Below, piece by piece: positions 898-64,000 of a DNA stretch of 64,000 nt; the stretch's first letter is position 1; the number at the start of each line of letters is the position of its first letter. The notes below the pieces were generated by a model, which saw only the letters and a list, made by a program, of their open reading frames with translations, was not told where the DNA came from and did no database searches. Both the position numbers and the translations under genes were made by a program. Source of the DNA: a virus; the IMG/VR virus record IMGVR_UViG_3300009503_000020, positions 1 through 64,000 of that record, one strand, 5' to 3'.

Positions 898-1009
898 AAG
901 TCATGACTATATCATGTCACGACGCTCATAGGGTAAGGGTAGGTGGAAAGTGATTCGCTCACTCACCTACACCACCCATCATAGTCATGCCAAAGGAGGT
1001 GAAACGAAT

Positions 1010-1219
1010 ATGAATACGGGACAAGTAGAACGACATGCCCACAGAATCGGGTATGCCCTTTGCCCAAGATGTAGTGAGACATTAGAAGCTCACACAGTAA
1101 CAGAGCTTCTAATGACAGTCGAGGGTGAAGTCATGCTGTCAGTGTATACCGTGTGGGCATGTCGACAGTGTGGATGGCTTAAGAGGGTAATCTTCGAGAA
1201 GGTAATTGATACCTCATAG
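1010..1219 (+). CDS. Zinc-ribbon protein, 69 aa, encoded on strongly self-complementary RNA
   Basis: I place the start at 1010, after AAAGGAGGTGAAACG; an in-frame ATT/ATG-less extension upstream lacks such a site. The product has CPRC near residue 18 and CRQC near residue 50, a typical zinc ribbon. The coding DNA is unusual: it carries perfect inverted repeats of 13 bp (1031-1043 with 1152-1164), 11 bp (1081-1091 with 1103-1113) and 10 plus 11 bp (1167-1195 with 1219-1241). The mRNA should therefore fold into long hairpins continuous with the structured region downstream. The protein is plausible, but the RNA structure may be the more important product. Confidence 0.55.
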   Translation: MNTGQVERHAHRIGYALCPRCSETLEAHTVTELLMTVEGEVMLSVYTVWACRQCGWLKRVIFEKVIDTS

Positions 1220-1951
1220 AAGATTACCCAACATCCACACTTTCATACTTACCTATCACAAGAGCCTGATGGCTCTATCACAGTCATCACTTCATGTGGT
1301 GACGCAGTGCAGTGAATTTCGGGTTCATTGCACTGCTACGAGGAACAGGGCATGAAATCCCATAAGTGCCCTGTCTCCGATGAAGCATGCATAGGTCTGG
1401 GTAAGCGGGACCAAAGTGGTGGCTTACCTTAGCCGATGAACCCACCAGCCACGGTAAAGTGGTTCCCCGAGATGGGGCTAAGTGGGTAAAGTGAGCACAT
1501 ATGGTGTGAACCATACGAGGCTCACTGGGGAGGTGAGAGGGAACTCACACAATTCCCGAAGGGAACACCGTCGAGGTTTACCCGAAATAAACCTCAATAG
1601 TGGAGTGGCAACCACACTAACAAAACGAATTGTGTGATTAAAGGGAAGACTTCAGCCCTCTCGAACAGACCTATGACGGGCAAATTGCATAGGAAAATAC
1701 CCGTAGAATGGGAGACCACGGGTCGACGACTAAAGACGCAAGCTCTCTCTGAGGAACATAACGTGCCCACGAAAGTGGGAAGACGAACTAACTCGGAGAG
1801 ACAATGCAACCTGAAGTCGTCAAGCCAAATCGTATTGGCAACGGGGTTCTTAACCATACTCTACAGTTCCAGCACTCCGAACCAAAAACACCACAGAGCG
1901 AAAGACACCTCTGCCCCGTTAGAGGTGATGAGGAGTGGTCTGCCTGTAGAG

Positions 1952-1957
1952 TTTTTT
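1952..1957 (+). terminator. T-run terminator of the structured RNA
   Basis: Six consecutive T residues follow the last paired segment of the structured region. Archaeal RNA polymerase terminates at U-runs, so this is a reasonable 3' end for the RNA and separates it from the gene at 2031. Confidence 0.4.
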
Positions 1958-1986
1958 CTGTATTCACACTTATCATATTACACCTT

Positions 1987-2007
1987 AGCGTCCTGGGACG
2001 CTAGGGT
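1987..2007. promoter_or_regulatory. 16-bp palindrome, possible ParB/operator site, repeated at 39713
   Basis: AGCGTCCTGGGACGCT (1987-2002) has 7-bp arms around a TG centre and is followed by AGGGT. The reverse complement of this palindrome, again followed by AGGGT on the same strand, occurs at 39713-39733 inside the ParB-like gene. Here it sits between a TATA-like TTATCATATTAC and the start at 2031, so it could be a centromere-type site, an operator, or both. Confidence 0.45.
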
Positions 2008-2030
2008 TCATAGGTATAGGAGGGATGTGT

Positions 2031-2315
2031 ATGGAATATAAAGGAAAGTATAGTAGAGGATGGAAACCTGTTCCTGATACCTATTGGATGTGTGAAGGTA
2101 TCTCTAAGGATGGAATATCCTTAGAGTATCTGGGAGTCATAAAGGTATCAGGAAAGGAAGTCTCGAGGGAAATGGATGAACACCAGAGTATCAAAGACTA
2201 CATGCCTTACAAGATAGCTAAACGAGTAGCTAAGGAACATTTCCCTCAAGTCAATCCTATTATAGTAACTCAAATAGGGAGGGATGTGTATGATAGGAAG
2301 AATAGAAAACCTTAG
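2031..2315 (+). CDS. Hypothetical protein, 94 aa
   Basis: The site AGGAGGG abuts an ATG at 2025, so the second in-frame ATG at 2031 has the better spacing. The product is a basic, aromatic-rich small protein with no Cys pairs, signal or membrane segment that I recognise. Its stop overlaps the next gene's start by 26 bases, so the two are probably translated together. It opens the long + strand gene run. Confidence 0.6.
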   Translation: MEYKGKYSRGWKPVPDTYWMCEGISKDGISLEYLGVIKVSGKEVSREMDEHQSIKDYMPYKIAKRVAKEHFPQVNPIIVTQIGRDVYDRKNRKP

Positions 2316-2820
2316 GAAGATACGAGTCAGCGACATAGCATTTGCATACACACATCAGACAAGACTTGAGCCAGACAGACCTATGGTAGTCAATAGATTT
2401 CCAGAGGCAGACAGACTACACGAAGAGTACAGTAAGATTAATGGAACAATGAAGCCTGAGGACTTAGATGCAAGTCTAAGATATCTGAGTAGGTTCACTG
2501 GAAACATTCTCATCGTAGGAAGACCAGATGGCATCAGAGTAAGTAATGACACAGTAAGTCTAGTAGAGTTCAAGACAGTATGGGGTGAAGAACCTCACAT
2601 AGATACAATCAGACTAGGAATACTTCAAGTGCAATTGTATGCATGGCTGATAGAACCACACCTAAGAAGACTAGGATTCAAGCTCAGTGATGTGCATTAT
2701 GTAGAGATAATCAACAGACAGAATGGAGAACTAGTAGCAAGCATAAGAGTACCAACACTACCTAATCCTGAAGAACTCATTTGGCAGACAGTATATAACT
2801 TTCTGGATAAGGAGGAATAG
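2290..2820 (+). CDS. Cas4/RecB-like PD-(D/E)XK nuclease, 176 aa
   Basis: Start at 2290 rather than 2284, because GGGAGGG needs spacing; the leader GGGATGTGTATG is the same as that of the preceding gene. The central segment GRPDGIRV...LVEFKTVWG matches the G-x-PD ... E-x-K core of the PD-(D/E)XK exonuclease fold, followed by a region with GILQVQLYAW that supplies the Q-x-x-x-Y motif. Unlike the larger Cas4-like protein at 38488 it has no terminal cysteine cluster, so it probably lacks an Fe-S cluster. Likely role: DNA end processing in replication or recombination. Confidence 0.65.
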   Translation: MIGRIENLRKIRVSDIAFAYTHQTRLEPDRPMVVNRFPEADRLHEEYSKINGTMKPEDLDASLRYLSRFTGNILIVGRPDGIRVSNDTVSLVEFKTVWGEEPHIDTIRLGILQVQLYAWLIEPHLRRLGFKLSDVHYVEIINRQNGELVASIRVPTLPNPEELIWQTVYNFLDKEE

Positions 2821-2822
2821 AT

Positions 2823-3371
2823 ATGGATAGTGAAGAAGAAGGAGAACGAGAGATAGCACTTTACAGGTATAAGAACATTCCACTGTCTCTAAGACTACAC
2901 GATGGCAAGTGGTATGAAGGTTACTGTGGGATGAGACACAATGGCTTACGAGTGACTGAAGCTAAGATTATACTAGGTACTAAAGACATACCATCTCAAG
3001 ACCATCTGTTAGTTATCTTCCTACATGAACTAGGACATCTCGAAGACAAGCTACTTTTCAAGCCAGAGGACTTTGCTAAGGAAGAAGAGATGAAGTTCCT
3101 CTTCAAGCTCTTTGGTTTCTCTGAGGAGTATATTGAGTACAGATTCAAGCAGGAGATAAGTGCATGGAAGAGAGCTCTTGTCTGGTGTGTTCAGTTTGGC
3201 ATATCTTTGCAAGCATTCCTTGAAGCACTGTGTATCTGCATAAGTCCACTGAGCAAGTCACTACTGCTCAAGTTCCTTGATATGTTTAGGAAAGAGTTAG
3301 ACAGTATTCAACAAGAAGGAGGTCTGAAAAATGGAACAGAAGAAAAGAGAGAAGACGATATTCATCAATGA
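2823..3371 (+). CDS. HExxH zinc metallopeptidase-like protein, 182 aa
   Basis: Preceded by AAGGAGG. LLVIFLHELGHLEDKL (about residues 61-76) is a zinc-binding HExxH motif in a hydrophobic helix, like ImmA/IrrE-type or other small metallopeptidases. The C-terminal half contains a long helix pair with Cys residues. No partner repressor gene is adjacent, so assignment to ImmA/IrrE is not secure. Confidence 0.55.
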   Translation: MDSEEEGEREIALYRYKNIPLSLRLHDGKWYEGYCGMRHNGLRVTEAKIILGTKDIPSQDHLLVIFLHELGHLEDKLLFKPEDFAKEEEMKFLFKLFGFSEEYIEYRFKQEISAWKRALVWCVQFGISLQAFLEALCICISPLSKSLLLKFLDMFRKELDSIQQEGGLKNGTEEKREDDIHQ

Positions 3372-3507
3372 CATACCTTTTCTATACCCAGAACACAATG
3401 TAGCAAGACAACTACAGATAGAAGTATGGCTTAACCCAGACATGATAGACTTAGGAGAACAGAAGCAGGTGAAGAGAGATGACCCTACTAAATACTACAT
3501 ATGCTAA
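3331..3507 (+). CDS. Hypothetical protein, 58 aa, overlapping the metallopeptidase gene
   Basis: ATG follows GAAGGAGGTCTGAAAA and the frame overlaps the preceding gene by 41 bases. The product is basic at the N-terminus with a hydrophobic middle and ends KYYIC. No family recognised. Confidence 0.5.
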   Translation: MEQKKREKTIFINDIPFLYPEHNVARQLQIEVWLNPDMIDLGEQKQVKRDDPTKYYIC

Positions 3508-3564
3508 TGAGATGACAGTCCAAATAGGACGGATAAAAATAAAAAGAAAAGGAGGTAGAAAGAA

Positions 3565-3699
3565 ATGAAGTGTCCTAACTGTGAATATCCGAGACTTAGA
3601 TACAATCTGAAAGTGCAGAGTGGAAAGAAACGAACAGACTTCAGTGCTGAATGTCCTAAATGTAAATGGACAGGAGAGATAGGAAATGAAAAAGAATAA
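3565..3699 (+). CDS. Zinc-ribbon mini-protein, 44 aa
   Basis: ATG after AAAGGAGGTAGAAAGAA. CPNC near residue 3 and CPKC near residue 30 make a complete two-knuckle zinc ribbon. The stop overlaps the next start by 14 bases. Confidence 0.7.
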   Translation: MKCPNCEYPRLRYNLKVQSGKKRTDFSAECPKCKWTGEIGNEKE

Positions 3700-4036
3700 G
3701 AATCCAAAGATAAAGAGATGCCACAGATGTGGAGGACTAATGGTGCAGTCTGACACAGAATGGGTCTGCTTAGGCAAGTGCAAACTACGAGAACCAAGAT
3801 TCCTCAAACCAGAGACACCATTCCTCTTCTTAAACATCAAAGCTAAGGATGAGAAGACACAGAAGTTTCTCGAAGACATAATGCAGAGACCAGAGACTGA
3901 AGTATTCAAAGACATCAAAGAGGATGGGACTGTGTTTGTCAAAGAGAGACTACCAGATGGTAGTGTAAGGATCCTTGATGTGACAACTATTCAGAAACTA
4001 TGTGACAAGATGGCTAGGGAGATAAGAGAACAATGA
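3686..4036 (+). CDS. Zinc-ribbon protein, 116 aa
   Basis: N-terminal zinc ribbon CHRCGG (residue 12) and CLGKC (residue 28), then a charged region of about 80 residues with an acidic/basic alternation and no known domain. Overlaps both neighbours, as expected for coupled translation. Confidence 0.65.
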   Translation: MKKNKNPKIKRCHRCGGLMVQSDTEWVCLGKCKLREPRFLKPETPFLFLNIKAKDEKTQKFLEDIMQRPETEVFKDIKEDGTVFVKERLPDGSVRILDVTTIQKLCDKMAREIREQ

Positions 4037-4230
4037 GATTAAAGAAATACTTGAGAGTTATCTGTTTCGGTGAACTAGCTTTTACATCTCTAATGTGGAT
4101 ATTAGTCTTCAGTGCATATCCAATAATTGAACCTAATGCCATCATAAGGAAAATAGAACAGATATTCTTTGTGGTCTTAGGAACAATTAGCCTCTACTTA
4201 GCATGGGATGAAGTAGTAAACGAAGAGTGA
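4033..4230 (+). CDS. Small membrane protein, 65 aa, two TM segments
   Basis: ATG overlaps the preceding TGA (ATGA). Two hydrophobic segments at about residues 8-28 and 42-58 are joined by a short polar loop, with a basic N-terminus. Function unknown. Confidence 0.6.
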   Translation: MRLKKYLRVICFGELAFTSLMWILVFSAYPIIEPNAIIRKIEQIFFVVLGTISLYLAWDEVVNEE

Positions 4231-4256
4231 TAATCGACAAGAGGAGAGTGGAAGAC

Positions 4257-4415
4257 ATGGAGAATGAAACAGACATTATCAACGAGAAGAACCAGAAGGT
4301 CTGTAAGTGTGGAAACAAGACATGGCTAGCTTACTTCAGTGGAATCCACTACACACTAGTTCTCAAATGCCCTAAATGCAATGCTACAGTGGAGTATGAA
4401 ATACTGGATTGGTAA
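4257..4415 (+). CDS. Zinc-ribbon mini-protein, 52 aa
   Basis: ATG at 4257 is preferred over an upstream GTG at 4227 because GAGGAG lies 10 bases before it. CKC near residue 16 and CPKC near residue 38 suggest a zinc ribbon with a shortened first knuckle. Confidence 0.55.
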   Translation: MENETDIINEKNQKVCKCGNKTWLAYFSGIHYTLVLKCPKCNATVEYEILDW

Positions 4416-4429
4416 GAGAGGTGAGAATA

Positions 4430-4600
4430 ATGACAAATGAGGATGAGTTAGAGAAGATAAGCAAGACTCTTGAAGACATTCTATATCTTGTAAAGAGAGA
4501 CATTCTAGAATGCTGGAAGAAGAAGTTAAACAATGAAGAGCCTGATGTCACTTGTGAGGACTGTGACTATTCTCCAATTTGTGACCAATTCTTAAAGTGA
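4430..4600 (+). CDS. Small protein with C-x2-C-x5-C tail, 56 aa
   Basis: ATG after GAGGTGAGAATA. An N-terminal amphipathic helix is followed by CEDCDYSPICDQ near the C-terminus, a metal-binding-like cysteine triplet of the kind seen repeatedly in this window. Confidence 0.55.
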   Translation: MTNEDELEKISKTLEDILYLVKRDILECWKKKLNNEEPDVTCEDCDYSPICDQFLK

Positions 4601-43583: not shown

Positions 43584-45143
43584 ATGGAAGAAGTAAGAGA
43601 CAAGATCCTACGTCAAATAGATGAGTTGGAGAAAACCCTCTTTGGCATGAGAGATGTTATAAAGATCTACATATTAAGCAAGGCTTGTGATTTGACTGTT
43701 CTATTGTTAGGAGCACATGCAACAGCTAAGTCTGCTCTCTCAAGAATGTGGTCAATAACCACTGGTTTGAACTATAGAATAGTAACTAGTTCTGAAGTCG
43801 ATGAAAGTTTGATTGCCTACATTGACCCTGCAGTCTTTAGAGAGAAGAACATTGTTCAAATGAGGCGAGGAGAACTTATGGAGAAGAACCACATCATAGT
43901 TGATGAATACTTTTTATGGCTTAACAAGTATAGAGCTAAGCTGCACCAACTCTTGGAAGAGAAAACATATGCTGGTCTAGATTCGCTTGTTTTCACATAT
44001 ACGTTTCTCTCCAACCCCTTATCAGACTTCTATGCAGGACAGATACCAGAAATTAATATGGCTTCAATTGACAGAATAGACTTATTTGTTCCAGTTAATC
44101 AACCATCAATAGTTCCTGCAGAGACTATGATGAGGAAGTTCTCTAAATATGGTAGAAAAGAAAGACCTCTGTCTCAGATATCTACATGGGAAGATTACTT
44201 GAAGGCTAGAGAGGAAATAATGCAAGTAAAAGTCCCTTCAAAGATAATAATCTGGCTAACGCTGTTTGCTCACTCTATGGCCTCATGCAAACATGTTAAA
44301 GACAAATGGAGCCTCTCTACTGCTAAACTCAAGAAGATGTGTCTCAATTGTAATGAAGTCAATCACTTGTGTAGCAAAGTCTGCCTTTCCAAACCTAGGT
44401 TCTTAAGAGCTACAATTTTACTTTCTAAAGGACTTGCTTGGTTAAATGGAAGAGATACTGTAACATTTCAAGATATCAATGAGGCTATCCTGTACACTCT
44501 TCCTCATAGACTAGCTTGGATACAAGAAGAACTCTCATACTCAGAATCTCTTGAGAAAGTACATGAGCTAGTTCAACAATTTAATGATGACATGCTAGTC
44601 TGGAAGAACAGAGGAGTGTTTTCTCAACTAGCCAAGATAATAGAATCAAGCAAAAGTGTTCCACCTAAGTATGAAGATAAGATAGGCCAAGAACTGAGTG
44701 CAGATGTCTCAGAGATTCACATACTGAAGGAGTTCATTGCTGAAACCTTAAACTCAGTTAAAGAGGATGTTAGTAGTTACTACTTTGTAGAAGCTAGCAA
44801 TAAGACTTACAAGACACTGAAAGAACTACAGGAATTCCTAGAGAAGTCAGGACTTAGTCCTTTTGAAAGAGATGTTCTTGCATTCAAGATAAGTCCTCCT
44901 AACTTGTCTTACATAATTCCAAATAATCCTGAGAACATAGAGAAGTTAATTGACACTCTAATCAACTGGCACACAAGAGAACAAGTAACTATAGATGATA
45001 AGACAATACTTGAGAGGAAGTTCTCCGAAGCAATAATCTTTGACTCAGAACTAGTCAAGATACAAGAAGAAACAGGAAGTGCTAAGTTGCTGTTTCCAGA
45101 TGAGAAGAAAAGGAATGCATTTGTGAAACTGTGGGAGGCATAA
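43584..45143 (+). CDS. RavA/MoxR-type AAA+ ATPase, 519 aa
   Basis: VLLLGAHATAKSAL (about residues 40-53) is a Walker A in the G-x4-[GA]-K-S form typical of RavA-like proteins. NHIIVDEYFLW (about 97) is Walker B and TFLSNP (about 132) sensor 1. A four-cysteine insertion CLNCNEVNHLCSKVC (about 253-267) is unusual and could bind zinc. The C-terminal 200 residues are helical. In RavA-ViaA-like systems the ATPase works with a VWA protein; the VWA gene at 47834 and an HExxH gene at 45626 follow in the same run. Confidence 0.75.
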   Translation: MEEVRDKILRQIDELEKTLFGMRDVIKIYILSKACDLTVLLLGAHATAKSALSRMWSITTGLNYRIVTSSEVDESLIAYIDPAVFREKNIVQMRRGELMEKNHIIVDEYFLWLNKYRAKLHQLLEEKTYAGLDSLVFTYTFLSNPLSDFYAGQIPEINMASIDRIDLFVPVNQPSIVPAETMMRKFSKYGRKERPLSQISTWEDYLKAREEIMQVKVPSKIIIWLTLFAHSMASCKHVKDKWSLSTAKLKKMCLNCNEVNHLCSKVCLSKPRFLRATILLSKGLAWLNGRDTVTFQDINEAILYTLPHRLAWIQEELSYSESLEKVHELVQQFNDDMLVWKNRGVFSQLAKIIESSKSVPPKYEDKIGQELSADVSEIHILKEFIAETLNSVKEDVSSYYFVEASNKTYKTLKELQEFLEKSGLSPFERDVLAFKISPPNLSYIIPNNPENIEKLIDTLINWHTREQVTIDDKTILERKFSEAIIFDSELVKIQEETGSAKLLFPDEKKRNAFVKLWEA

Positions 45144-45144
45144 C

Positions 45145-45633
45145 ATGTCAACTACTCCTCAAGATATAGAGAAGAAGTTTCCTGAAGTTTATGGCTATTC
45201 TATAAAGAAGGAGAGGAAAGAACAGGTAACCATAAAAGGAATTTCTCTTGAGATAAAGAAGTATACAACTACACTTAAGACAGGTGGAATTAGAGTCTCA
45301 CTTATAGACAACACTAGTGAGTTCTTTCTCAAGTACAATGAGTACCTTGCATCTATAGAGAGTTTTAGACCTGCAGAAGAGAAAGCAATGAACATGTGGT
45401 CTTTCACTACTCTGTGCACAGCAGATCCAAGTCTAGAAGAGATGGGAGGAGCAGGGTTCTATGTGTATCAGAATCACCTTGTGTTCAATGAAGAAGAGAA
45501 GAGTGCTCCTCCTATAGATAGACTTACTAAGTTTATAGAACACTACAAGAAGAAGTTTGGTATTAGAACAAGACTCAAGGAAGATGATTTCTCAGACTTG
45601 GATGTTCTAGAGAGGACAACAGAGAATGAATAA
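45145..45633 (+). CDS. Hypothetical component of the ATPase/VWA module, 162 aa
   Basis: Starts one base after the ATPase stop and overlaps the metallopeptidase gene by eight bases, so it is probably an obligate partner. Mostly beta-rich with a C-terminal helix; no recognised domain. Confidence 0.55.
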   Translation: MSTTPQDIEKKFPEVYGYSIKKERKEQVTIKGISLEIKKYTTTLKTGGIRVSLIDNTSEFFLKYNEYLASIESFRPAEEKAMNMWSFTTLCTADPSLEEMGGAGFYVYQNHLVFNEEEKSAPPIDRLTKFIEHYKKKFGIRTRLKEDDFSDLDVLERTTENE

Positions 45634-47449
45634 GGAACTAATTACTAAGAAGAATTTCAACAAGATAGCTAAGAGATTAGAGGAACTGCAAGTACGCAGT
45701 TGGAAGATGTCTAGACCTATATTCCCTAAGATGACTCTATACTTCAAAGTATTTCCTATAGAATCATATTTCTCTACTGTAGGTCAGATCTGGTGGGTCA
45801 CACCTTACTGGAGAGGAGATGCTTTTGCTCTCTCTATTTTGTTCCATGAAGGACATCACTGGAACATCTATCCACTAGATATATTTAGAGCTATCAAAGA
45901 TATCTTTGAAGCTAGAAGACTTCTTGCTGAGGAGATAGGATTCGTACCTGAGAAAATCCAGAAGTCTCTTTGGAGAGTAGAAGAAGACTGGAGTCAGTTT
46001 GCATACTCTACAGCTGAACTTCAGTTCGTTGAAAATATTCTCGGAGATTACTGTCTTGAAGGAACGACAAAGATCCTACTCCCTGGTGGTGCAGAAAAAG
46101 AAATCAGAGAGATAAAAGAAGGAGATATAATCCTAGGAGTAAGAAATGGAAAAGTGGTACCTACTCGGGTCTTAGGGATTGGGAAAACTCTTCACACTGA
46201 AATAATTGAATTCAGAGATGGAAAACGCCATTTAGTCACCTCCCCTGAACATAAAATTTTTTCTTATCCAGACTTTCAACTTAAACTAGCAAAAGAGTTT
46301 AATAATGAGAGTGTTTACTATTACTTGGATGATAAACTTGGGCAAAAGAACCTGGACAGAAGAACAGATACAATTCCTGAAGGAAAATTATCCGAAGATG
46401 ACAGCAAAAGAAATAGCAGCAAGACTAGGAAAAACAGTTCACAGTGTTCAAGGCTATGTTTACCTTCACGTAGATACTCTCTCCAAGCGAGAACTCTCAA
46501 GAAAAAGATGCCACCAGATAGTCACTTCATTTACAGAAACGGAGAAAGCTTATATTGCTGGAATTGTCGATGGGGAAGGAACGATTACGATCGTGGGAAA
46601 GAAATATCGACAACCAATGATATCAATATCCAACACTTCTTTCCTTCTCAAAGAATATTTCGAACGACTTGGCTTTCAAACTCGAGTGAAGACAAATTGG
46701 GCAGGAACAGAATACTTCTCACTTTACATAACAGGGCAACACAATATCAGAGAATTCCTAGTTGCTATCAAAGATTACTTAGTAATCAAGAAGGAACATG
46801 CCCAACTCTTGCTGCAGTGGTTAGAACTGAAAGCTCAACAGAAGGTTCATGGCAAAGACACTCCTCAAATGGAGGAACTATTCAAACGCTTGAAACTTTT
46901 GAACTCAAGACATCCACATTTAAGGTTATCAGAAAGAAAAAAACTGATCCAGTAATTCTCTATGATCTAAAAACTTCAACCGGTTCATTCTTTGCTAACA
47001 GGATTCTAGTCCACAATTGTGTGAATTTACATATACATGACAACTATCCTCTAGTGTGGAATGATCTCTGGCATTTCCTCTCAGTTGAAGGTACATTTTA
47101 TGAGAAAGAGAAAGCACTCAAGAGAGACACTACTTTCCTGTTATACTTAGCAGTCTATCCAGAGCTAATTCCAGGTTTAGAACAGATACCAGTCAAAGAG
47201 AAAGTTTCTGAAGAGAAGATACCTAAGATAGCTCACATTGTTAAACTATGTAAAGAAGGAAGGATTTCTACTCCCTATGCTATTAAAGAGCTAGCTAAGT
47301 TATTCCATGACAATATCCAACAGGATCTCAAAGAAGCAGAAGGAGAAGGGAAAGAAGGAGATTTCAAATGCCCCAAATGCCACTCAGATGAAGGGTGGGA
47401 GATAGTCTCATACTTTGATGAACAGAAAGGAAAGTGGTTAGATGTCTGA
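45626..47449 (+). CDS. HExxH metallopeptidase-like protein interrupted by an intein, 607 aa (285 aa after splicing)
   Basis: The N-extein (142 aa) has FALSILFHEGHHWNIYPL with a zinc-binding HEGHH, and ends VENILGDY. The C-extein begins CVNLHIHDNYP and ends with a CPKCHSDEG knuckle. The join restores GDYCVNLHI, which aligns with VDAAVNEIL of the DUF2201-like protein at 11428, so the intein sits in the predicted active-site helix. The 322-residue intein is 46052-47017. The metallopeptidase and the VWA domain that are fused in the first module are separate genes here. Confidence 0.75.
   Translation: MNKELITKKNFNKIAKRLEELQVRSWKMSRPIFPKMTLYFKVFPIESYFSTVGQIWWVTPYWRGDAFALSILFHEGHHWNIYPLDIFRAIKDIFEARRLLAEEIGFVPEKIQKSLWRVEEDWSQFAYSTAELQFVENILGDYCLEGTTKILLPGGAEKEIREIKEGDIILGVRNGKVVPTRVLGIGKTLHTEIIEFRDGKRHLVTSPEHKIFSYPDFQLKLAKEFNNESVYYYLDDKLGQKNLDRRTDTIPEGKLSEDDSKRNSSKTRKNSSQCSRLCLPSRRYSLQARTLKKKMPPDSHFIYRNGESLYCWNCRWGRNDYDRGKEISTTNDINIQHFFPSQRIFRTTWLSNSSEDKLGRNRILLTLHNRATQYQRIPSCYQRLLSNQEGTCPTLAAVVRTESSTEGSWQRHSSNGGTIQTLETFELKTSTFKVIRKKKTDPVILYDLKTSTGSFFANRILVHNCVNLHIHDNYPLVWNDLWHFLSVEGTFYEKEKALKRDTTFLLYLAVYPELIPGLEQIPVKEKVSEEKIPKIAHIVKLCKEGRISTPYAIKELAKLFHDNIQQDLKEAEGEGKEGDFKCPKCHSDEGWEIVSYFDEQKGKWLDV
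46052..47017 (+). other. Intein 1 (322 aa, Cys1 to terminal Asn) in the metallopeptidase-like gene
   Basis: Begins CLEGTTKILLPGG (block A) and HLVTSPEHKIF (block B with T-x-x-H), and ends VILYDLKTSTGSFFANRILVHN before Cys+1 (blocks F and G). These are the splicing blocks of an active-looking Hint domain. Between them, about 215 residues in the intein frame are Ser/Arg/Thr/Gln-rich and resemble no protein, because that DNA encodes a LAGLIDADG endonuclease in the +1 frame. Confidence 0.85.
46305..46955 (+). CDS. LAGLIDADG homing endonuclease encoded in the +1 frame inside intein 1, 216 aa
   Basis: ATG at 46305 with a weak AAAAGAG upstream. RTWTEEQIQFLKENYP ... KEIAARLGKTVHSVQGYV is a SANT/helix-turn-helix DNA-binding part, then EKAYIAGIVDGEGTITIVG is a LAGLIDADG motif and FLVAIKDYLVIKKEHAQLL the typical following helix. 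Its frame differs by +1 from the intein frame, which has no stop across it. T-ending codons are never followed by AA-, AG- or GA-starting codons: Phe is TTC before GAA or AAA, and Ile is ATC before AAA, AAG or AGA. Confidence 0.8.
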   Translation: MRVFTITWMINLGKRTWTEEQIQFLKENYPKMTAKEIAARLGKTVHSVQGYVYLHVDTLSKRELSRKRCHQIVTSFTETEKAYIAGIVDGEGTITIVGKKYRQPMISISNTSFLLKEYFERLGFQTRVKTNWAGTEYFSLYITGQHNIREFLVAIKDYLVIKKEHAQLLLQWLELKAQQKVHGKDTPQMEELFKRLKLLNSRHPHLRLSERKKLIQ

Positions 47450-47615
47450 AGAGTTTGAGTTCATTACTGAATGTCCCAAGTGTAAGCAGATAGTAACTGT
47501 AAGACGCATATTCTCTAAAGCAAAGTGTCCCTACTGTGGGTATAAGTTTGAACCAAAGATGCTAGCTGCAAGGAAAGCTTTCAACCCGTCTCTAAGGAGG
47601 AAAGAGAATGTCTAG
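47442..47615 (+). CDS. Zinc-ribbon mini-protein, 57 aa
   Basis: CPKCKQIV (residue 11) and CPYCGYKF (residue 29) form a zinc ribbon; basic tail. Overlaps the metallopeptidase stop by eight bases. Confidence 0.6.
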   Translation: MSEEFEFITECPKCKQIVTVRRIFSKAKCPYCGYKFEPKMLAARKAFNPSLRRKENV

Positions 47616-47844
47616 AACATCTCTGAAATGTCCTAAATGTGGCTATCCTTTAAAGCCTCAAATCAGAACTAGATTAGGAGATCCTTTTGAAGTACCATTC
47701 AGGTGTGAACATTGCAATACAACTTGGATATGGCACAGTTGGCAAGAATACTATGAGAGTTGTTTCTTTGAAGATCTAGTTAGATTTGTGACTAAGAATT
47801 TTAATCCATCAATAAAGGGGAGTACTTTAAAACATGAAAGTTAG
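47608..47844 (+). CDS. Zinc-ribbon protein, 78 aa
   Basis: CPKCGYPLK and CEHCNTTW (about residues 8 and 33) form a zinc ribbon, then an aromatic helix. ATG after AAGGAGGAAAGAGA. Confidence 0.6.
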   Translation: MSRTSLKCPKCGYPLKPQIRTRLGDPFEVPFRCEHCNTTWIWHSWQEYYESCFFEDLVRFVTKNFNPSIKGSTLKHES

Positions 47845-48826
47845 AATAAAATGCAAGAACTGTGGTTACACTTGGGAAACTGATTTGCAACTTAGTCCAC
47901 TTGGGAGTCTTAAACCAGGCAAGAAAGGACCACTCTCAAGAATCAAGATAGACAAAGGCTCTCTAGATAAAATACTTGACATTGCTGCAGGAGCTTCTAG
48001 AGATGACCTAGAGAAATTAGGATTAGAGATAGACATAGAGGAATGGGAAGATGCTGTGGAGAGGCTAGCTCTTAGGAAATTCCTTCTTGAAAATTTAAGA
48101 GTATGTAGAGAAAAGAAACAGAAAACAGGAGAGAAGTATGTAGTAGGTACTGAACCGTTTGTTATGGGAGATAGTTTCAAGGATGTTGACATCCCGTCAA
48201 GTGAAGTGAAGAGTCTTGGTGTAGAAGACTTGAGAATGATACCAGGAGTTACTCTCCAAAAGAAGGTATATAGTATAACAAGAGGAAGAGATGAAGAAGA
48301 GCTAAAAGGTATTAAGTGCTTTGTGATTATAGATGGTAGTGGATCTATGATAACTGGGAAAGGACTCACATTCTCTGGAGGCAAGATAGGCAAAGCTCTC
48401 CTAATAGGGAAAGAGATCTATGAGATAACTAAGAAATTTGGATTTGATTATCAGCTTGCACTCTTCTCTGATGCAGGTGTGAGAGTGCCAAAGGAGAAAC
48501 TTAGAGAGTTCTGGGCTGATGCTAGTGAGAGAGCTAACTACAGGATATGGAATGGAGGTACAAGATTACAACGAGGCTTGGAACAGTTTACTGAGCAAGA
48601 ATACAGGGATGCTAACTTGATAGTTATCTCAGACATGGACTTAGGAGACTTCCAAGAAACTAAAGATGAGATCCTTAAGATATCTAAACTAACAAATAGC
48701 TTCAAGATAATTATAATAGAGACTCAAGACATAGACTTAGTTGAAAGAGAGAAGCAAGTGCGTGAGATATTTCCACCTGAAGCTCAATTGCAGATAATGG
48801 TAATACCTTTATCTGAAGGAAGTTAA
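47834..48826 (+). CDS. VWA-domain protein with N-terminal zinc knuckle, 330 aa
   Basis: CKNCGYTWETD near residue 7 is half of a zinc ribbon. A linker leads to KCFVIIDGSGSMITGKG (about 158-174) with the MIDAS D-x-S-x-S, GGTRLQRGLEQF with the MIDAS Thr, and LIVISDMDLGD with the MIDAS Asp. The MIDAS is thus complete, so a metal-dependent partner contact is expected, most simply with the RavA-like ATPase at 43584. Confidence 0.8.
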   Translation: MKVRIKCKNCGYTWETDLQLSPLGSLKPGKKGPLSRIKIDKGSLDKILDIAAGASRDDLEKLGLEIDIEEWEDAVERLALRKFLLENLRVCREKKQKTGEKYVVGTEPFVMGDSFKDVDIPSSEVKSLGVEDLRMIPGVTLQKKVYSITRGRDEEELKGIKCFVIIDGSGSMITGKGLTFSGGKIGKALLIGKEIYEITKKFGFDYQLALFSDAGVRVPKEKLREFWADASERANYRIWNGGTRLQRGLEQFTEQEYRDANLIVISDMDLGDFQETKDEILKISKLTNSFKIIIIETQDIDLVEREKQVREIFPPEAQLQIMVIPLSEGS

Positions 48827-62545: not shown

Positions 62546-64000
62546 ATGGAAGCTTTGCAGGTATTAAGCAAGAAAGAGATTATGGAATTAAAGAAGAAAA
62601 TAGAACCTATAAAGAAACTAGCTCTGCATGACGATGCAGATGGTGTAACTTCTGCAGTACTTATGTCTTATGTGTTTAAGATAAACAAAGTATGGGCTCC
62701 AGATGACTTTGGAGAGTGGCCTGTTGCTCCTTATAAAGTTCAAGGGCAAGAACAACTAGAGCTTCCACCAGATGTTTGTGTGGATATGGTACCAGCTAAT
62801 CCTGAATGGGTTGGTTTAGCAATAGACCACCATCCAAATCACCCTCCTGAAGGAAAGAGAAGTTACCAGCTTATCTATGGAGAAGCACCTGCTTCTGTTA
62901 TTGTCTATACTCTCTTTAAAGAATTAATTCCACAAGAACATAGATGGAAAGTAGTAGTTGGCTGCCTGTCCAAGGACACGGAAATACTTACTCCAAGTGG
63001 GCAAATTGAAATCAAAGATCTTAATACTTTGGATTCTGGAATAGGTCTAGATGAACATGGAAAGCTTTGTAAAAATTTACTGTTTACAATACCTAAAGGA
63101 CGGAAAGAACTGCTGCGAATCACTACCAGAAAGAGAGAGATATTAGTAACTCCTGAGCATAGGCTGTTTACACAAAGAGGTCTTGTTGAAGCAAAGGACT
63201 TAAATATTGGAGACTACTTGGTGGTATACTTGAGGAGTTTAGATGACTTCTCAAAGAAAGTTAGAAGCAAACAGGAAGAATTTAGAGAAAGCACGCCAAG
63301 TCTTAAAACTATTAAGCGGAAATCCCAGCTGGAAGAGCTGGTGGCTTGGGAGAGTGAAAGCATCAATTACAGAAGAGAAAAGACAGAAGCTCAGAGAAGC
63401 AGCTATGAAGAATGGAACAAGAGAACGAATTCTTCTTCACAATCTCAGTCATCGAGAGACGAGAATGTGCCCAATATGTGGGAAAGAGTTTACGGTAAAG
63501 AAATCTTCAAGAAAGAAATATTGCTCAATGAGATGCTCAGGCAAAGCAAACTTGAAGAACCTTGGCAAATATACAGGTTCACACAGTGGGCGAGAAAACC
63601 CAAATTGGAAAGGTGGAACTTCAGCCAAGCCATATCATTGGGAAATGAAGAAAAAAGAATGGAGAAACCTTTTGTATCAGAAGGTCGGGTACAAATGTCA
63701 ACTTTGTGGCAACAAAGGCAAACTCAACATTCATCACATAAACAGAGACAAGATGGATGGAAGGCCAGAGAATTTGCTTATACTCTGCCCAAGTTGTCAT
63801 TTAAAAGTTCACAAATTGGTTTGGAAAGGATTGAAAGCATAGACTATGAGGGCAGAGAAGAAGTATTTGACATACACTGGGCCTCTACCAACAATTTCTT
63901 CTTAGCTAATGGAATTCTTTCCCACAATTGCGTTGGAGACGGACAACCAGAACTTATACCTCCAGAGATATGGAGAGAATTTCCTATCTTACTGGAAGAG
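62546..64000 (+). CDS. DHH-family phosphoesterase interrupted by an intein (3' end outside window)
   Basis: Open from 62546 to the window end without a stop, ATG after AGAGG. The N-extein (139 aa) has LALHDDADGVTSAVL (DHH motif I), DVCVDMVPAN (motif II) and AIDHHPNHPP (motif III, the DHH signature). The intein is inserted before CVGDGQPE (motif IV, GD). DHH proteins are RecJ-like exonucleases or nanoRNases; in archaea they join replication complexes (GAN-like). The C-terminal DHHA1 part is beyond the window. Confidence 0.8.
   Translation, partial: MEALQVLSKKEIMELKKKIEPIKKLALHDDADGVTSAVLMSYVFKINKVWAPDDFGEWPVAPYKVQGQEQLELPPDVCVDMVPANPEWVGLAIDHHPNHPPEGKRSYQLIYGEAPASVIVYTLFKELIPQEHRWKVVVGCLSKDTEILTPSGQIEIKDLNTLDSGIGLDEHGKLCKNLLFTIPKGRKELLRITTRKREILVTPEHRLFTQRGLVEAKDLNIGDYLVVYLRSLDDFSKKVRSKQEEFRESTPSLKTIKRKSQLEELVAWESESINYRREKTEAQRSSYEEWNKRTNSSSQSQSSRDENVPNMWERVYGKEIFKKEILLNEMLRQSKLEEPWQIYRFTQWARKPKLERWNFSQAISLGNEEKRMEKPFVSEGRVQMSTLWQQRQTQHSSHKQRQDGWKAREFAYTLPKLSFKSSQIGLERIESIDYEGREEVFDIHWASTNNFFLANGILSHNCVGDGQPELIPPEIWREFPILLEE
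62963..63928 (+). other. Intein 2 (322 aa, Cys1 to terminal Asn) in the DHH phosphoesterase gene
   Basis: Starts CLSKDTEILTPSGQ (block A), has ILVTPEHRLFTQRG and EAKDLNIGDYLVVY (block B region) and ends EVFDIHWASTNNFFLANGILSHN before Cys+1 (blocks F and G). The region between is open in the intein frame but looks random there, because the +1 frame encodes an HNH endonuclease. Exactly the same length (966 nt) as intein 1. Confidence 0.85.
63243..63842 (+). CDS. HNH homing endonuclease encoded in the +1 frame inside intein 2, 199 aa
   Basis: Own ribosome binding site GAGGAG (63232-63237) five bases before the ATG. Basic helical N-terminus, zinc ribbon CPICGKEFTVKK ... CSMRC, HSGRENPNWKGG (typical of HNH homing enzymes) and YKCQLCGNKGKLNIHHINRD ... 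ILCPSCHLKVHK, the HNH core. No T-ending codon precedes a codon starting AA, AG or GA: Tyr is TAC before AAA but TAT before TGC, ACA, CAT and CAG. This keeps the intein frame free of stops. Confidence 0.8.
   Translation: MTSQRKLEANRKNLEKARQVLKLLSGNPSWKSWWLGRVKASITEEKRQKLREAAMKNGTRERILLHNLSHRETRMCPICGKEFTVKKSSRKKYCSMRCSGKANLKNLGKYTGSHSGRENPNWKGGTSAKPYHWEMKKKEWRNLLYQKVGYKCQLCGNKGKLNIHHINRDKMDGRPENLLILCPSCHLKVHKLVWKGLKA

Follow-up and report, generated by a model that had tools for sequence, protein, structure and literature searches.

Out-of-frame insertion of endonuclease genes into phage genes whose own frame stays open has been described for the ShiLan domain and Pacc40 gp60, both out-of-frame HNH insertions in mycobacteriophage methylases, and no splicing domain was detected in insertions of the ShiLan type by the authors (Arsenault, Gosselin & Gogarten 2025, PMC11855218). 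The loci reported here resemble ShiLan in that a phage endonuclease ORF (HEG) lies out of frame within a host gene that remains open, and the ShiLan HNH is a distant relative (29% over residues 60-181) of HEG2, one of the two endonucleases dealt with below. In contrast to these loci, where intein motifs and a Pfam match to a splicing domain accompany the out-of-frame HEG, ShiLan is not an intein, is known with HNH only, uses the third frame instead of +1 and is GC-rich, so that few chance stops (2.3) are expected there. Canonical LAGLIDADG inteins share with our loci the Hint splicing ends, a conserved insertion site and a LAGLIDADG enzyme, however their endonuclease is normally in frame with the splicing domain and made as a part of the intein, whereas HEG1 and HEG2 are both displaced by +1. 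The “fractured genes” reportedly described by Dassa and co-workers in 2009 have split inteins on either side of a free-standing endonuclease; there too the endonuclease is a separate ORF between intein halves, but our host gene 1 is a single unbroken ORF, so that cis-splicing would need no assembly of fragments. The single-motif LAGLIDADG enzymes I-CreI and I-MsoI, whose fold is that predicted for HEG1, are borne by group I introns, while an Rfam scan of the intein 1 and intein 2 regions gave no match at E<=1; with no ribozyme core recognised and the host frame open, a group I intron was ruled out.

Endonucleases overprinted on real inteins can also be found in deposited genomes of Gordonia phages. 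In phage Clown (L011, 1297-4056, annotated as terminase only) a terminase intein contains an out-of-frame HNH ORF at about 2060-3007, in the same +1 phase as in our virus. In phages SchottB (L008) and Lennon (L009) the MuF capsid-protein ORFs (1040-4141 and 959-4069, both on the minus strand) hold inteins with an antisense LAGLIDADG ORF (2567-3157 and 2495-3085, plus strand), that is, unlike in our virus, on the opposite strand. These genomes have about 64% GC and the openness of the intein frame is weakly significant (P 0.02 for Clown). Actinophage inteins with displaced endonucleases may already be the subject of a 2025 preprint of Gosselin et al. (“Non-Canonical Architecture”) from the group of the ShiLan authors. 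The arrangement is therefore not wholly new, as out-of-frame HNH insertions have been published and displaced endonucleases are present in deposited Gordonia phage inteins. What is new here is that LAGLIDADG genes overprint inteins on the same strand, that a single virus has two different nucleases placed in this way, that the dual-frame constraint is demonstrated against free-standing controls and, possibly, that an overprinted intein occurs in archaea.

The stretch of DNA analysed (the window, 64,000 nucleotides) corresponds to positions 1-64000 of a virus record of 120,717 bp. Genes for a portal protein, glycosyltransferases and a DNA polymerase of family B are also present in this record, which therefore belongs to a tailed virus with a bacterial or archaeal host. 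Host gene 1 (45626-47449, plus strand, as all window features below) is an unbroken ORF of 607 aa, in which an extein of 285 aa with a HEGHH motif is split by intein 1. The gene is flanked by a MoxR-like AAA ATPase gene (43584-45143; AAA_lid_2 E 2e-7) and a vWA-domain gene (47834-48826; VWA_CoxE E 0.0026, below cut-off). Positions 43584-48826 thus form a cassette of the MoxR-like AAA ATPase, a small gene, the HEGHH protein and the vWA protein; it is kept in another virus (L002) and resembles MoxR-vWA ternary systems. The extein gave no Pfam match despite its HEGHH motif, and its sole likeness to the DUF2201_N metallopeptidases, which are hosts of related inteins, is a short and weak match (...DYxxN...). 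The profile comparison with DUF2201_N, with a probability of 1%, is too weak for homology to be claimed, although the stretch that it aligned is the DYxxN one, as expected. The proposal of the sequence-only reading that the intein sits in a metallopeptidase active site consequently keeps the HEGHH motif and the short DYxxN match in its favour but has no Pfam match behind it, and is less secure than the rest.

Intein 1 (46052-47017, 322 codons) begins with Cys1 in CLEGTT, has SPEH in the N-terminal Hint part and ends in ILVHN/C (the slash marks the junction), the C-terminal part being VILYDLKTSTGSFFANRILVHN/C; its frame is open from end to end and 285 aa are left once it is removed. Pfam Intein_splicing is matched over residues 154-464 with 20.9 bits (E 3.4e-4), below the curated cut-off of 35.8, and the C-terminal splicing segment alone (46880-47017) with E 0.089; the splicing domain is recognisable, but less strongly than in intein 2 (59 bits). 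An uninterrupted extein homologue of 285 aa, 68% identical, was found at L002:6001-6858, in a virus with the same gene order AAA-extein-vWA (71%, 68% and 61% identity respectively). The window reads GDY/intein/CVN where L002 reads GDY/LIN, so the latter represents an intein-free allele at the exact site, and it lacks the +1 Cys required for splicing; a Pfam search of the L002 record detected no intein. A second allele of intein 1 was not found, hence its mobility is suggested by presence and absence in one relative.

HEG1 (46305-46955) is an ORF of 216 aa in the +1 frame relative to the intein. It matches Pfam LAGLIDADG_3 (PF14528) with 24.4 bits (cut-off 22.5, E 3.6e-5), and its AlphaFold model matches I-MsoI, I-CreI and I-CvuI (Foldseek E about 3e-6), so both the LAGLIDADG helix and the fold are present. 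The motif AYIAGIVDGEGT (46548-46583, conserved columns around A82-T93) falls, when read in the intein frame, within the unstructured linker. Upstream of it an N-terminal, helix-turn-helix-like part with three predicted helices (46350-46469, residues about 16-55) gave a weak GcrA match (E 0.12) and is common to the intein-borne relatives. Bases 46880-46955 serve at the same time as the C-terminal tail of HEG1 and as part of the splicing segment. The intein boundaries, the predicted excision product and the complete LAGLIDADG ORF in the +1 frame had all been read from the letters beforehand, and they stand as described.

The DNA of this region is visibly kept free of stops in both frames. When the codons of HEG1 were shuffled synonymously, 9.4 intein-frame stops were expected on average and none is observed; not one of 20,000 permutations was stop-free. 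Among the 59 HEG1 codons that start with AA, AG or GA not one comes after a codon ending in T, while 25.8% (771/2991) do in other genes of the window (binomial 2e-8), so the stop-avoiding codon choice that had been claimed earlier is confirmed by count and agrees with the permutations. The longest shifted-frame open run in the 32 other window genes is 82 codons, and in the whole record of 120,717 bp the only same-strand ORF overlaps of at least 330 nt are intein 1 with HEG1 and intein 2 with HEG2. Free-standing relatives of the endonuclease (n=139), examined in the matching relative frame, contain 2028 stops versus 2094 expected and none of them is stop-free. The nine same-strand overprinted cases, on the other hand, have no stop where 9.4, 6.8, 6.4, 8.6, 9.5, 4.9, 12.6, 3.4 and 11.3 are expected, and their permutation P values lie between <0.001 and 0.02. 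That codon bias opened the frame by chance is ruled out by the synonymous permutations, the 139 free-standing relatives and the other genes of the window.

The second example in the same virus lies in host gene 2 (62546-64000, continuing to 64519 in the record), whose extein, with the motifs DD...DHH, gave no Pfam match and an empty homologue scan. Intein 2 (62963-63928, 322 codons, CLSKDT...ILSHN/C) has the terminal residues of its class, as intein 1 does, and scores above the Pfam cut-off. HEG2 (63243-63842) is a 199-aa HNH endonuclease ORF (Pfam HNH E 1.2e-5) with a zinc-finger-like CPIC...YCSMRC; it is unrelated to HEG1, yet placed in the same +1 phase, with 0 intein-frame stops versus 11.4 expected. 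An AGGAG Shine-Dalgarno-like site (63233-63237) is situated within the intein-coding sequence 5 nt upstream of its start codon, with a duplex of -8.8 kcal/mol, equalled by 1.1% of internal out-of-frame ATGs. The best full-length matches of HEG2 are ShiLan-type HNHs, and a scan with HEG2 alone returned nine loci, none overlapping an intein.

As a single query HEG1 found no relative in viral_contigs and alignments were required; the whole host gene 1 ORF found none in phages. Besides many free-standing genes, a first scan that combined HEG1 with more distant relatives gave L097-L100, which are the closest relatives and lie out of frame inside inteins; a second scan added L106 and L175. In all six of these loci, from five viral records and one archaeal MAG and about 28-35% identical, the endonuclease occupies the +1 frame of an open intein frame, with 4.9-12.6 stops expected. 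The hosts are DUF2201_N metallopeptidase + VWA proteins in L097, L098 and L099, and glycosyltransferases in L100 (about 38% GC), in the viral L106 and in L175, which comes from a Candidatus Terraquivivens MAG. Pfam Intein_splicing is above cut-off in intein 2, L100, L106, L175 and Clown. In L097, L099, L100 and L175 the end of the endonuclease stop codon is separated from the intein end by 8 nt, and in L098 by 11 nt, which means that the HEG frame overprints the C-terminal splicing segment. HEG1 of the window forms a clade with L097, L098 and L099 (98/95), every member of which lies out of frame in an intein, whereas L106 with L175, and L100, are placed elsewhere in the tree, and the out-of-frame label needs three changes; the tree allows the arrangement to have arisen once but does not establish it. 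Other inteins in the same records and genomes had no overlapping LAGLIDADG or HNH ORF; one of them, L274, from the same record as L100, appears to hold its endonuclease in frame. In that record (IMGVR_UViG_3300013099_000018) the same loci (L100/L101 and L271/L274) occur in two copies of opposite orientation, close to either end, as inverted repeats or a mirror assembly. In L099, around 3305, the N-terminal residues of the intein and the N-extein are missing upstream of the open intein/HEG overlap, so this locus is truncated, split or an assembly join.

The two frames are constrained in different places, as can be seen from the comparison of L097 with L098. In the middle of the intein identity amounts to 54-57% for the HEG; for the intein frame it is 26-27%, which is inside the range given by synonymous shuffles (mean 23.5%, maximum 30.4%). 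Over the final ~30 codons it reaches 67% in the intein frame versus 48% in the HEG, and third-position differences of the HEG fall from 0.57 in the middle to 0.23. It follows that the linker must only stay open while the splicing end dictates the sequence of the HEG tail. Selection on both frames has the restricted meaning that the intein frame is merely kept open in its middle, amino-acid constraint being detectable only near the splicing end, in this one pair. The structure model of intein 1, confident at residues 1-48 and about 301-322 only and of low confidence at 49-264, agrees with such a predicted open linker.

It is proposed, with a probability of roughly 0.8, that intein 1 is a dual-frame homing intein, i.e. 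a cis-splicing precursor together with a separate endonuclease driving homing. Frame 0 would encode extein and intein, the precursor consisting of two splicing halves joined by a putatively unstructured linker of roughly 215 residues, and self-splicing would restore the host protein of 285 aa. Read at +1, the linker together with part of the C-terminal splicing segment would yield an independent LAGLIDADG endonuclease, whose translation most likely starts internally near 46305-46338. This enzyme may work as an I-CreI-like homodimer and cut L002-like intein-free alleles at the insertion site, after which repair would copy the entire element; selection would act to preserve the endonuclease as a protein, both splicing ends and, in frame 0 of the linker, the freedom from stops. 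Internal initiation competes here with a programmed +1 or -2 ribosomal frameshift near 46290-46305, by which an N-extein/N-intein-HEG fusion could be made with no internal start. Since the HEG1 frame is open upstream as far as 46290, a ribosome shifting at this point would join the two frames, and the weak Shine-Dalgarno of HEG1 (-2.4 kcal/mol, equalled by half of internal ATGs) leaves frameshifting in play as a minor alternative. Nevertheless it is unlikely: no obvious slippery site was seen by inspection, L097-L099 share the position of the ATG (gATGcc or aATGcc, within the G[FY]x[DN]A of the intein), and their start codons, as that of HEG2, have a moderate to strong Shine-Dalgarno.

That an ordinary in-frame endonuclease was shifted by one-base sequencing or assembly errors at both edges deserves almost no credence, even though the locus comes from a single metagenomic record. 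Two such slips would not clear the about 9 stops expected from the other frame, and the +1 phase is common to two inteins of one record and six relatives of other assemblies. The sequence-only reading had preferred selection on both frames to two slips and had named in-frame relatives as what would overturn it; the relatives examined show the opposite, none being fused in frame to the intein C-terminal motif, while the free-standing ones lack stop avoidance and intein 2 repeats the pattern. It is very improbable, too, that translation runs through the insert and leaves it unspliced in the protein, in the manner of ShiLan, whose insertions combine an open host frame with no splicing domain (PMC11855218) and whose HNH is related to HEG2, because Cys1, TxxH/SxxH and ...HN/C are present, Pfam Intein_splicing spans the ends of the insert, and the C-terminal splicing segment is the best-conserved part of the intein frame between L097 and L098. 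Finally, the endonuclease could be an inactive passenger of an intein persisting by splicing alone, since activity is not judgeable from sequence and no recent transfer was seen. This is quite improbable as well: HEG frames are intact in all members, motif residues are retained, and the HEG middle is conserved while the overlapping frame is not.

On a more far-reaching view the overlapping frame would uncouple endonuclease dosage from splicing, loss of one frame would come with damage to the other, and such elements could be a stepping stone from canonical inteins to split inteins flanking a free-standing endonuclease. That dual-frame inteins constitute a distinct and persistent class of homing element with these properties can be put forward only tentatively and is rather doubtful at present. 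Bioinformatically they are a clear example of selection holding two unrelated protein functions, self-splicing and the cutting of DNA, in overlapping frames, and they offer a testable route for the entry of endonucleases into inteins and their exit. AT-rich genomes make the signature statistically decisive, which the GC-rich actinophage examples cannot. Intein annotation is also affected, because a long “dead” linker may conceal an endonuclease in another frame.

Several other LAGLIDADG relatives were observed. A free-standing one (L136, 35% over 90 aa) is located within about 12 kb of the empty site in the record that also contains L002 (IMGVR_UViG_3300031999_007842). In L134 a relative (3414-3962, plus strand) is antisense within an SNF2-like helicase ORF (2001-4457, minus strand) in which no intein C-terminal motif was found, and is possibly an antisense ShiLan-like insertion. 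The relatives in L169 (3447-3989) and L187 (3444-3926) overlap long capsid-like ORFs in antisense, at the 5' part of these, and could be intron- or insert-borne.
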